This document shows, piece after piece, positions 54,190 through 58,957 of a stretch of DNA of 64,000 nucleotides. A model generated the notes under the pieces. It did not search any database and was not told where the DNA came from. It saw only the letters and a program-made list of their open reading frames with translations. Each line of letters begins with the position of its first letter. The stretch's first letter is position 1. Position numbers and translations under genes: made by a program. This DNA comes from Gluconacetobacter sacchari (GTDB lineage Bacteria; Pseudomonadota; Alphaproteobacteria; Acetobacterales; Acetobacteraceae): positions 62,001-126,000 of the forward strand of contig NZ_JABEQJ010000005.1 in assembly GCF_014174255.1 (NCBI RefSeq), given 5' to 3'.

Positions 54190-55230
54190 CTAGCCCGCGA
54201 GCGGACGCACTGTGTCGCACACCGCCGGATCGCCATCGGGCGCGTAGGCCAGCCCCAGCACGTCATGCAGGAAATCGCGGGTGGCCCGGCACACGGCATC
54301 GGGAGTGCGCGAGCGCAGCGGCGAGGCAATGACATGGCTGTCCGCCTGCGGAAAATCCACCTGCCGCCGCAAGGAGGCCGGCGTGCTCAACTGCCCGAAC
54401 ATCCACATCATCGCCGGCACCTCGACCGTCGGGTCGGTATGCGCCGGATCGCGGTCGTAATACCCCAGAAAGACCGGTGCCACGACCTGGCGAAAGACCG
54501 GCGCGACCATTCGCCCACGCGTCAGTTCGGCCAGGGCGACATAACCGTCGACATGCACATCCCCTGTCCACACCGGCCCCAGCGCAGCCTCATGCGTGAC
54601 GTCATGGGCATGATTATGGATCAGCCACATCATTTGCAGCCCCCACGGCCAGAACAGCGGATCAAGCTGGTTGCCCCGTTCGCGCACCAGCGGCGACCAT
54701 AGGACCAGCCCCGCGACCGCTCGCGGAAAGCGGGCCGCCAGGTCCAGCGCCAGGGCACCGCCGGTCGAAGTGCCGATCACCACCACCCGGTCGCCGATCG
54801 CGTTGCCGATTGCCAGCGCCCGGGCCGCCCCCTGCGCCAGACGCTCCGCGGTCAGGCCGCGCATCGCGTCGGGCGCCTGTAGGCCATGGCCCGGCAGGCG
54901 CGCCAGATAGAGATTGCACCCGAACAAACGCGCCAGATCCGCATGGACCGGCGCCCCCTCGCCCTGGCTGGCAGTAAAGCCATGCAGATAAACGATAGCG
55001 CAGGCGGTACGCGCGGGATGCGCCGGATCAGCCCATACAATCCTGGCCCTGGTTCCGGGCCGCAGCGGACCAGCGGCCGCTTCGCCGGCCGCGATTCCGG
55101 CCTCCAGAGCGGCGGGCGAGGCTGGTACGTCCGGCAGGGCCAAGGTGCCGTTCCATGGGCGCACGCGCGGCCCCAGCATCACACCCAACGCCAGCATTCC
55201 CGCCAACAAACCAAGGCGTCGCCACATCAT
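54190..55230 (-). CDS. Alpha/beta hydrolase with N-terminal signal/anchor
   Basis: A 346-residue protein with a hydrophobic N-terminal segment (about residues 5-22), so it is probably exported or anchored. The oxyanion strand is IVYLHGFTASQGEG, the nucleophile elbow GTSTGGALALDL, and the acid and histidine are likely in YYDRDPAHTD and the ADSHVIAS segment. The order fits esterase/lipase-type hydrolases. There is no substrate clue. It sits 221 bases from the divergent sensor gene. Confidence 0.88.
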   Translation of the reverse strand: MMWRRLGLLAGMLALGVMLGPRVRPWNGTLALPDVPASPAALEAGIAAGEAAAGPLRPGTRARIVWADPAHPARTACAIVYLHGFTASQGEGAPVHADLARLFGCNLYLARLPGHGLQAPDAMRGLTAERLAQGAARALAIGNAIGDRVVVIGTSTGGALALDLAARFPRAVAGLVLWSPLVRERGNQLDPLFWPWGLQMMWLIHNHAHDVTHEAALGPVWTGDVHVDGYVALAELTRGRMVAPVFRQVVAPVFLGYYDRDPAHTDPTVEVPAMMWMFGQLSTPASLRRQVDFPQADSHVIASPLRSRTPDAVCRATRDFLHDVLGLAYAPDGDPAVCDTVRPLAG

Positions 55231-55451
55231 CGCCGCCTTCCTGCCCGATATCCCAACGTACGTACCCTATACCCCTATACCGAATTATGTTTGAGAAAAT
55301 AGATCCTCGTTCTTATAATCACAAATATTGCCCAACTTTCTCTCCATCACCCCGCATGCCGCAGAACGGCAACACGGGGTCGTTAGCTGGCCAGGATCTC
55401 GATATTTTGTTCATCACGCATGGTCCACCGGGAAAGACGCGTCGCCCGTTC

Positions 55452-58316
55452 GTGCGCTACCGCAAGATCCTGACCCGGCTAACCTGTCTTCCCTGCTTTT
55501 TTGCGCTCATGACGGATGCCTTTTCCGCGCAAGGTCAGACGGTGCCCGCCACGCTCTACGATAGCACAAGCGGTCTTGCGAATATTTCAGTCATATCGGT
55601 GCTCCAATTGCCGACAAGGCAGATCGTGGTAGCGACCCAGCACGGATTTTTCCTTTTCGACGGGCGGCACTTCACCCCCTTCGGGCCGCGACAGGGCCTG
55701 CCGACCGGCGGCGTCGGCGTCAGCGCCGCGCTGACCAGCCATGGGAACCTGATCCTGGTCTATGCCGACATGATCTATGTCGCGCACGATCCGGCAGGCG
55801 CCGCCTCGCCCGACCGGCTCTATTTCCAGCCTGTCGATAGCGGACACGCGCTGGGGCATGACGGCCATCGCAAGATCACGCCCTGGCGCGGCGGCCTCGT
55901 CGTGACCGACCGTGATCGCCTGCTGTTCGTCCATGACGACGGCACTGGCGAACACATCACCCTTCTGGCCCGGATGCTGGCCATGCACGGCGATCCGCTG
56001 ACCGACGTGTCGGCCCTGCGCGCGGATGGCGATACGTTATGGATCGGCACCAGCGACGGTCGCCTGTGCGCCGTATCCGGCCCCACCCTACGCTGCCCGT
56101 CCCTGCCACCCATGGCCGAGCCACGCCGCATCGATGCCATCATCCAGGACCATGACGGCACGCTGTTTATCCGTACCCTGCATGAACTCCTCGTCGTTCC
56201 CCGCGATCCCGTAGCCGCGCATGTCGAAACGATTCCCCATGCCGGCTCCCAATATGATAATTACCAGCATCTGCTGACCCTTTCCTGGTCTCCGCAAGGC
56301 GCCCTGATCACCCAGACCGACGACAGCGAACTGGCGATCCGGACCAGGGAGAACTGGACGACCGTCACCCTGGCCGGCGAACAATCCAACTCGCCGCTGA
56401 GCGCCCTGCTATTCGACCAGCAGGGGGCCCTATGGATCGGCAAGATGGGCTACGGCCTCCTGCGCGCCGGGGGATTCGGCATCTTCGAGACATTCGGACG
56501 ACGCGACGGTCTGGCCAGCGACGTCATATGGCAGATGGCCCGCCAGCCCGCGGGCCCGATCTGGGTCGATACCGACACCGGCATCAGCGCATTGGACACC
56601 CGCACCAATCGCGTCGTCCGCACCATCGGCCAGGCCGGCTTCCATATCGCGGCCGACCGCCACAACGGCATCTGGCAGGCAGGATCGGAAGGTGTGAGCG
56701 TCCACGACGCGCAATCGGAGTGGCAGCGCGACTATGCGATCAAGCGGGTCAACCATGTCCTGATCGGCACGGGCGACGATATCTGGCTGCTGTCCGATCA
56801 CGGAGCATGGCTGGCCGATGCCGCCCGGCGCGACCAGGACCCCGTCGCCATTCCCGGCCTGGACCATTCCTATGTCACGGGGCAGATCGATGCGGCCGGA
56901 ACGGCCTGGCTGCTCGAAAGAGGGCGGCTGGTCGCCCGGCACCCCGACGGCACCATCAGCGTCGTGCTGGCCAAATGGCCCCTGGCGACCTTCGCCCCCT
57001 ACGCGATCGCCATTCAGGACGAGCACCGCCTGTGGTTCAGTGGCCAGGGTGGCGTCTATCGGCTGACGCATGACGGCGACCGGGTCGACGATCTGACATT
57101 CTACGACCCGATGACGGTCGGCAACGACATCCTGTACAGCCTGCTGGTTGACCGCGATGGCCGCATCTGGGCCGGGTCGGATCGCGGCGTGAACGTCTTC
57201 GACGGCCGACGCTGGGTCACCATCACCGAGGCGGACGGACTGGCCTCCAACGACCTCGACCAGGACAGCCTGCTGGAGGACGCGGACGGATCGATCTGGC
57301 TGGGTACCAGCCGCGGCCTGTCTCATCTTCTCCGGCCGGAGGCGCTGCTGACCGACATCTCCCCGCAACCGGTCATCACCGGCATGGAACTCGGCCAGAA
57401 CCCGTATCATGGCGAGCATGCGGCCTTCAGCCGCGCGCCCCTGCGCGTGACATTCGGCACCTTGGATTACCGCGACGCACCGCGCCTGCGGTTCCGCTAC
57501 CGGCTGGAAGGCGCGGACGAAGGTTGGAACGAGACCACCGAAGGATCAGTCCGCTATCCCTCGATGCCGCCCGGTACCCACCGCTTCATGCTGGTGGCCC
57601 TCGATCCGGACCGCCATCGGCAATCCGCGCTCGTGACCGCCACCGTCACCATGGCCTATCCCTGGTGGGATCGCTGGCCCGTACGATGCCTGGAGGCAGC
57701 GTGCCTGTTGCTGGCCCTCTACATGGCCTGGCGGATCCGGGTCGGGCTGCTGCTCAATCAACGCCGTAAACTCCAGGAGATCGTTGACAGCCAGACCGAC
57801 CAGATCCGCACCGCCCATCAGGCCCTGATTGAACAATCGCGTCTGGACAGCCTGACCGGATTGCTCAACCGGGGCGCGATCCAGTCCCTGCTGCAATCCA
57901 GCCTGGCCGACCGGCCAGCCGACACCGTCCTGATGGCGGTCTTGATCGACGTCGATCATTTCAAACGGATCAATGACGGCTGGGGTCACCTGACCGGCGA
58001 TGAAGTCCTGGTCGAAATCGGCAGCCGCCTGCGGCAGGGGCTGAACGTCGGTGACGCGGCGGGCCGCTATGGCGGCGAGGAATTCCTGATCGTACTGACC
58101 GGTGAGACCGCGACGGCGTCCCGCGTCCAGGCCCTCTGCCGCTCGCTGGGCGGGATGCCGGCCCCGGTCGGCAAGCCGGACCTTGTGGTCACGGTCAGCG
58201 CCGGCATCGCCATGGCACGCCGGGAAGAGACATGGCAGAGTCTGATCGCCCGCGCCGACGCCGCACTCTATCGCGCCAAGGCCGAGGGACGGAACCGGGT
58301 GATCGAGGCCCCCTGA
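55452..58316 (+). CDS. Beta-propeller (Reg_prop) sensor diguanylate cyclase
   Basis: An inner-membrane sensor of 954 residues from GTG 55452, which begins a good signal peptide (RYRKILTRLTCLPCFFALM). The frame is open further upstream to ATG 55287, but that part has low third-position GC. Repeats of the form LWIGTS and IWAGSDRGV mark the two-component-regulator propeller. A Y_Y_Y-type domain (RFRYRLEGADEGWNE) and one membrane helix near 742-765 follow, then a GGDEF domain with RYGGEEF (GGEEF at about 874-878), which makes cyclic di-GMP. The RxxD inhibitory site is degenerate (NVGD). The ligand is unknown, perhaps a polysaccharide. Confidence 0.93.
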   Translation: MRYRKILTRLTCLPCFFALMTDAFSAQGQTVPATLYDSTSGLANISVISVLQLPTRQIVVATQHGFFLFDGRHFTPFGPRQGLPTGGVGVSAALTSHGNLILVYADMIYVAHDPAGAASPDRLYFQPVDSGHALGHDGHRKITPWRGGLVVTDRDRLLFVHDDGTGEHITLLARMLAMHGDPLTDVSALRADGDTLWIGTSDGRLCAVSGPTLRCPSLPPMAEPRRIDAIIQDHDGTLFIRTLHELLVVPRDPVAAHVETIPHAGSQYDNYQHLLTLSWSPQGALITQTDDSELAIRTRENWTTVTLAGEQSNSPLSALLFDQQGALWIGKMGYGLLRAGGFGIFETFGRRDGLASDVIWQMARQPAGPIWVDTDTGISALDTRTNRVVRTIGQAGFHIAADRHNGIWQAGSEGVSVHDAQSEWQRDYAIKRVNHVLIGTGDDIWLLSDHGAWLADAARRDQDPVAIPGLDHSYVTGQIDAAGTAWLLERGRLVARHPDGTISVVLAKWPLATFAPYAIAIQDEHRLWFSGQGGVYRLTHDGDRVDDLTFYDPMTVGNDILYSLLVDRDGRIWAGSDRGVNVFDGRRWVTITEADGLASNDLDQDSLLEDADGSIWLGTSRGLSHLLRPEALLTDISPQPVITGMELGQNPYHGEHAAFSRAPLRVTFGTLDYRDAPRLRFRYRLEGADEGWNETTEGSVRYPSMPPGTHRFMLVALDPDRHRQSALVTATVTMAYPWWDRWPVRCLEAACLLLALYMAWRIRVGLLLNQRRKLQEIVDSQTDQIRTAHQALIEQSRLDSLTGLLNRGAIQSLLQSSLADRPADTVLMAVLIDVDHFKRINDGWGHLTGDEVLVEIGSRLRQGLNVGDAAGRYGGEEFLIVLTGETATASRVQALCRSLGGMPAPVGKPDLVVTVSAGIAMARREETWQSLIARADAALYRAKAEGRNRVIEAP

Positions 58317-58375: not shown

Positions 58376-58957
58376 TCAGCCTGCTGTCCGACCGTCCACC
58401 CGCGCCAATGCCTCCGCCAGCCAGGGTCCGGCCGCAGCCGTGCTGCCCGGACAGGCCATTTCCAGCAGCGTCACCCCCTCGACGATCGACAGCAGAGCCG
58501 CGGGCGGACAGGGATGATCCGGGTCCGGGATCAGCCGTGTGCCGATCCACGCCGTCCAATCCGCGACCACCGCCTTCGCGACCGTGTCGTACGGCGCTTC
58601 GCCGGCGGCGGCGCGGGCGATCACGTCGGTCCATACCCGCATGAACGGCATCATCACCGGATCCCGCCCCAGCGCCAGGACCTCGCCCAGGAATGCGCCC
58701 GGCGAAACCGGCGGCCCCACGCTGTAGGCCTGGAGCAGCACGGACAGCTTCTCGCCGATCCGGGCCAGGATTCCGGTAACCAGCGCGTCCTTGCTCCCGA
58801 AATAATAGATCAGCATCCGATCGCTGGTACCCAGCCGCCGGGCCAGTCCGCGCAAACCCATCGTGCCCAGTCCCTCGCGCAGCACGAGTTCGGCCGCCGC
58901 GTCCGCCAGGGCGTTGCGCCGCCCCAGCCGATCCGGCGCCGCGGAATCATCGCTCAT
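58376..58957 (-). CDS. TetR-family transcriptional regulator
   Basis: A 193-residue repressor-type protein. The N-terminal helix-turn-helix is GLRGLARRLGTSDRMLIYYFGSKDAL (the LIYYFGSKD turn is typical). The C-terminal ligand domain is variable. It diverges from the DUF5367-type gene across an 88-base gap that contains a tgaagcg/cgcttca inverted repeat, so it probably controls that gene and itself. The effector is unknown. Confidence 0.92.
   Translation of the reverse strand: MSDDSAAPDRLGRRNALADAAAELVLREGLGTMGLRGLARRLGTSDRMLIYYFGSKDALVTGILARIGEKLSVLLQAYSVGPPVSPGAFLGEVLALGRDPVMMPFMRVWTDVIARAAAGEAPYDTVAKAVVADWTAWIGTRLIPDPDHPCPPAALLSIVEGVTLLEMACPGSTAAAGPWLAEALARVDGRTAG

Follow-up and report, generated by a model that had tools for sequence, protein, structure and literature searches.

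The window analyzed here is a stretch of 64,000 nucleotides from Gluconacetobacter sacchari (contig NZ_JABEQJ010000005.1, positions 62,001 to 126,000 of the forward strand), and all coordinates below refer to it. On the + strand, a frame without an inner stop (55452-58316) translates to a protein of 954 aa in which a beta-propeller sensor is fused to a GGDEF domain (hereafter, the propeller cyclase). This gene had been predicted with a GTG start at 55452; the open frame stands, the start codon probably does not. When the gene is aligned with four same-genus orthologues, the GTG position is occupied by TTT in all four, whereas a TTG codon at 55407, together with an upstream AGGA, is present in all five sequences, with a one-base indel just upstream of the TTG in one of the orthologues. 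Given this conservation pattern, GTG 55452 was rejected as the start, and the gene probably extends from TTG 55407 to the stop (55407-58316, + strand), encoding a protein of 969 aa. Residues are numbered below from codon 55452.

A candidate sigma-70-like promoter (TTGAGA-17 nt-TATAAT, 11/12 matches) is located at 55291-55319 on the + strand; shuffles of the region scanned contain 0.7 +/- 0.8 such sites. Conservation of this site is partial: both hexamers are kept in one of the four orthologues (L103), where the spacer is one base shorter, and CTGATA and TGTAAT stand in their place in the other three. The gene is probably transcribed alone because the neighbours on both sides, encoding an alpha/beta hydrolase (54190-55230) and a TetR family protein (58376-58957), are on the - strand. 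The G+C content of 2-kb blocks is 0.63-0.73 in positions 1-36000 of the window vs 0.61-0.68 in positions 36001-64000.

Three Pfam domains exceed their curated cut-offs in this protein, namely Reg_prop (55.5 bits, cut-off 20.4), Y_Y_Y (31.2 bits, cut-off 26.6) and GGDEF (132.5 bits, cut-off 23.8). The protein begins with a hydrophobic segment (55452-55532, + strand) that may be a signal peptide or an anchor; it corresponds to a helix at residues 4-24, a stretch where the structural model has low confidence, and its hydropathy window from residue 6 (1.42) barely exceeds the windows at residues 502-503 within the propeller (1.37). The beta-propeller region with Reg_prop repeats follows (residues ~35-640, 55554-57371) and then the Y_Y_Y domain (residues 673-722, 57468-57617), a transmembrane helix that continues into a coiled-coil-like linker as a single helix in the model (residues 742-797, 57675-57842), and the GGDEF diguanylate cyclase domain (residues 798-949, 57843-58298), all on the + strand. 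The top 19-residue hydropathy windows of the whole protein begin at residues 749-751, i.e., in the transmembrane helix, so that both sensor domains precede one hydrophobic helix, the arrangement of a Reg_prop/Y_Y_Y periplasmic sensor. There is no Pfam match in this protein to histidine kinase, receiver or HTCS output domains up to E = 1, and accordingly it is not an HTCS. A search of the own genome with the 24-residue Reg_prop model yielded no match, not even to the propeller cyclase gene itself, and is therefore uninformative on other propeller proteins.

The AlphaFold2 model, built from 13 sequences (the window protein plus 12 homologues that are 22-26% identical), has a mean pLDDT of 75.1 and a pTM of 0.57 and consists of strands over most of residues 29-734, which hold the propeller and Y_Y_Y parts, a continuous helix at 742-797 and a GGDEF fold. 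The pLDDT is below 50 at residues 1-28, 81-87, 115-175, 254-257 and 262-274. The first propeller is partly of poor quality. The ten best Foldseek matches in the PDB are all chains of BT4663 (4a2l and 4a2m, E 1e-37 to 1e-35), with TM by target of 0.66-0.68 for 4a2l and 0.57-0.60 for 4a2m, followed by BT3049 and BT4673. Further down, amid unrelated propellers, GGDEF structures are found, e.g., 3ign (TM by target 0.89). The PDB sequence search agrees with the fold search in placing 4a2l at the top. Sensors with the BT4663-like fold consist of two seven-bladed propellers and a Y_Y_Y domain. With Pfam scores above the cut-offs and BT4663 as the best fold match, the proposed likeness to the sensors of polysaccharide-sensing hybrid kinases is supported. 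BT4663, however, is a heparin/heparan sulphate-sensing hybrid two-component system, whereas the window protein ends in a GGDEF domain, and the identity in the structural alignments is 17-18%, which says nothing certain on the ligand.

Of the 14 genomes of the genus, 9, its own included, contain a long relative of the propeller cyclase with at least 52% identity (the one in genome G013 is cut by a contig end). Four of these orthologues match it along their whole length with 76-78% identity. The remaining 5/14 genomes have no close full-length relative, and hence the gene is dispensable there. The dN/dS values against the four orthologues are 0.17-0.38 by domain from residue 35 on and 0.22-0.39, from few sites, for the first 34 residues. 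With L104, which is more distant, they are 0.29-0.34, and 0.54 for the first 34 residues. These values indicate that the propeller cyclase is under purifying selection. Among the seven same-genus genomes compared, dinB and the alpha/beta hydrolase gene flank it in six, opp genes in five and the TetR gene in four; none of the tested neighbours is found in the stretch fetched from G008. The orthologues, the dN/dS values and the same neighbours in most of the same-genus genomes compared argue that the open frame is not due to chance. In a genome of the same genus (G006:C5:50887-56791, L168), the propeller cyclase occurs twice in tandem: the intact copy is 64% identical to that of the window, and the closer one (70-77%) is broken near residue 281, giving two frames that overlap.

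Beyond the genus, the architecture is already known. GdpX2 and GdpX3 of Xanthomonas oryzae have been described as GGDEF proteins that carry such a Reg_prop/Y_Y_Y sensor, and the function of their periplasmic sensor is called unknown by the authors in the part of that article available to us (PMC6637768). The same part lists their I-sites as conserved and does not name these proteins among those with conserved GGDEF motifs (PMC6637768); the window protein, with NVGD and GGEEF, is the reverse, a distinction drawn from this description alone. Three other Xanthomonas propeller cyclases (L024, L027, L029) are 26-27% identical to the window protein and lie outside its clade. Of the 20 matches listed for plasmids, 9 are named 'ligand-binding sensor domain-containing diguanylate cyclase', and five plasmid records have one place covering at least 80% of the query, led by the Acetobacteraceae Lichenicola cladoniae (two) and Kozakia baliensis (one). 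The plasmid-borne Lichenicola proteins (WP_172443539.1 and WP_172443570.1) are whole-length relatives with 38% identity that also lack RxxD (KPGE) but have GGEEI instead of the GGEEF of the window protein; an Acetobacteraceae genome (G283) contains a copy equal in length, identity and score to one of them. The match on the Kozakia plasmid pKB16680_2 (L133) consists of two parts separated by an annotated IS5-family transposase gene, and this copy thus looks interrupted. No paper on a propeller cyclase of acetic acid bacteria was found in the literature searched. The main text of PMC8846402 and PMC9756655, as searched, contains neither 'propeller' nor 'Y_Y_Y', and PMC8463545, as far as its available text goes, deals with Reg_prop/Y_Y_Y histidine kinases. 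In Stenotrophomonas maltophilia, BtsD is described as joining GGDEF to an FN3 domain and a signal peptide (PMC11404848, in part); we weighed it by this domain description alone and claim no relation to the window protein.

To place the active site and the inhibitory site in a family context, 53 propeller cyclases were compared, 37 from Acetobacteraceae, including the window protein, and 16 others. Left out of this count were duplicate entries for places already represented (L099, L134-L137, L150, L152, L160, L162), L161, to which no GGDEF domain was mapped, the second, broken copy of G006 and the GGDEF-only matches L115-L128; from one set of 80 loci, only 13 were used, the rest being matched mainly in the GGDEF domain or excluded individually (L023, L036 and L079, with apparent stops in the matched span, and L026). 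Some of the 37 clade members are near-copies (L131/L132, L105/L107, L100-L102). The GGEEF motif of the window protein (residues 874-878, 58071-58085, + strand) was identified by motif reading. Fourteen positions, which we take to be catalytic or structural (metal- and GTP-binding), namely D833, D835, K838, N841, D842, D850, R872, G874, G875, E876, E877, D936, K943 and R947, do not vary among the 37 clade members and the 16 other propeller cyclases; one clade row, cut by a contig end, is gapped at the last three. With the GGDEF score of 132.5 bits, the GGEEF motif and all 14 positions in place, the domain is intact, as originally predicted, and the protein classifies by sequence as a putative diguanylate cyclase.

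In the canonical I-site, five residues separate RxxD from GG(D/E)EF. Motif reading and alignment place NVGD at this position in the window protein (residues 865-868, 58044-58055, + strand), nine to six residues ahead of GGEEF, so that the canonical RxxD is missing, again as predicted. This degeneration is not special to the window enzyme but common to its genome and clade, as the comparison indicates, because RxxD is missing in 13/18 GGDEF domains of the own genome (present in 5/18) and in 35 of the 37 Acetobacteraceae relatives. If only the domains of the own genome with an intact GG(D/E)EF motif are considered, RxxD is present in 5/14 and missing in 9/14. Within the clade, RxxD is found in 2 proteins and RxxE in 10, giving an arginine at the first I-site position in 12/37, with the arginine missing in 25, whereas the fourth position is acidic in 36/37 (E in 28, D in 8). 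Among the 16 other propeller cyclases, RxxD is present in 12 and absent in 4.

The tree comprises the 44 of these 53 proteins that are at least 800 aa long and has only a midpoint root. It unites the Acetobacteraceae propeller cyclases of the window protein's kind with good support (30 rows, 99/97), and an RxxD protein of Duganella radicis adjoins them (31 rows, 100/100). The RxxD label requires 7 changes on this tree vs a shuffled mean of 10.9, and clustering as strong occurs in 1/500 shuffles for the proteins without RxxD and in 4/500 for those with it. The two clade members that keep RxxD, L159 and L108, are separate in the tree, and therefore there was not one clean loss; several losses or regains of RxxD in the Acetobacteraceae clade are possible. 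The genus also has another kind of propeller cyclase (L112-L114), with an intact RxxD; its grouping with the Xanthomonas proteins suggests a separate origin or transfer. Given the scarcity of RxxD in the supported clade compared with the proteins outside it and the near-invariant acid at the fourth position, it is tempting to speculate that the Acetobacteraceae propeller cyclases are an external-signal-driven family devoid of allosteric product feedback, with the I-site perhaps rewired for another partner, but we consider this a tentative proposal that is rather more likely to be wrong than right.

What the missing RxxD implies for the enzyme depends on whether the domain is active and on which inhibitory routes are left. 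Instead of the F that ends GGEEF in the window protein, 13 of the 37 clade members (L131, L132, L138-L143, L147, L109, L110, L133 and L159) have I, Y, M, V or L, which could be taken as a sign that the domain serves for binding or as a scaffold and is not an active cyclase. We regard this as very improbable given that every checked position is intact and conserved and that dN/dS against the four orthologues is 0.23-0.37 in the GGDEF domain. A more serious alternative is that feedback is kept by another route, with cyclic di-GMP competing with GTP at the active site. XCC4471 of Xanthomonas campestris lacks the typical RxxD, and yet its complex with cyclic di-GMP indicates competitive inhibition via the active site; the kinetics of Dcsbis are interpreted along similar lines (PMC4937426, from the part of the article available). 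The text of that part describes dimerization of XCC4471 as needing the HAMP and TM domains and does not mention a propeller (PMC4937426). Conversely, YfiN of P. aeruginosa, with RxxD present and the secondary site degenerate, was concluded to be without product feedback, according to the available part of PMC3838380. Neither the presence nor the absence of RxxD simply predicts whether there is feedback. The acid retained at the fourth I-site position would be compatible with competitive feedback in the window enzyme, but may be purely structural, and by analogy with XCC4471, we consider this alternative possible, albeit the less favoured one. The loss of RxxD removes only the non-competitive route, so that weak feedback of the window enzyme, though plausible, is a prediction.

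The original prediction also linked the enzyme to activation of cellulose synthase. The genome does belong to an acetic acid bacterium with a PilZ-bearing cellulose synthase: there is one CelA match over the cut-off, along with one weak match below it, and the former (L173, G000:C1:94000-113000) has BcsB and PilZ domains. Its gene is accompanied by those for BcsC, an acyltransferase, a protein with GDSL as its C-terminal domain and a PAS-GGDEF-EAL protein. This locus is similar to the bcsII operon, which includes BcsY and BcsZ, as described in the available part of PMC9318390, and is not evidently a bcsI pellicle operon. The propeller cyclase is encoded on another contig (C5) than the bcs locus (C1), with no bcs gene among its identified neighbours. 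Co-occurrence was assessed in a sample of 299 Acetobacteraceae genomes, including 7 of the 14 of the genus, using the sensor part alone as the query for propeller relatives (E up to 1e-12; for one of these, L161 of G116, no cyclase domain was found) and E up to 1e-100 for CelA. A propeller relative is present in 28 genomes, a CelA match in 124 (105 over the cut-off) and both in 12, so that CelA is found in 12/28 genomes with a propeller relative vs 112/271 without one (Fisher p = 1.0, relatedness ignored).

It could be argued that the propeller cyclase is a dedicated cellulose activator, i.e., that a feedback-free enzyme makes cyclic di-GMP mainly for the cellulose synthase and its PilZ domain. 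Apart from the presence of this single synthase, such a role would fit the non-significant tendency within the 14 genomes of the genus, where CelA occurs in 8/9 carriers of the orthologue vs 2/5 others (Fisher p = 0.09, relatedness ignored), the sole carrier without it, G013, being 87% complete and in 1310 contigs. The lack of association across the family, the bcs locus on another contig with its own PAS-GGDEF-EAL protein and the bcsII-like character of that locus all argue against it, and we consider it unlikely. A special cellulose function was rejected on the basis of the family co-occurrence and the location. A cellulose link as such is possible but has no specific support, given the other contig, the probable own promoter, the absence of a bcs neighbour and of family co-occurrence, and the PAS-GGDEF-EAL protein by the bcs genes.

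Taken together, we propose, with a probability of roughly 75%, that the window protein is a one-component transmembrane sensor cyclase. Under this scheme, the periplasmic propeller part and Y_Y_Y would bind an external ligand, possibly a saccharide by analogy with BT4663, and binding would alter the packing of the dimer, a change that the single membrane helix and the coiled coil would relay. The two cytosolic GGDEF domains would then meet to make cyclic di-GMP from 2 GTP. Without RxxD, the enzyme would probably be free of the usual non-competitive feedback, so that its activity would be set mainly by the ligand, by expression and perhaps by the product competing at the active site. The cyclic di-GMP would enter the general pool that serves adhesion, motility and exopolysaccharide, with cellulose synthase as one possible target among several.

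In this sense, the propeller cyclase is a well-preserved but ordinary representative of an already known architecture. The family comparison corrects a misreading that a single sequence easily invites: the missing RxxD is the rule here and not the mark of an unleashed enzyme. If the proposed mechanism is correct, an external, possibly sugar-derived, signal would be tied directly to cyclic di-GMP in acetic acid bacteria, with no phosphorelay.
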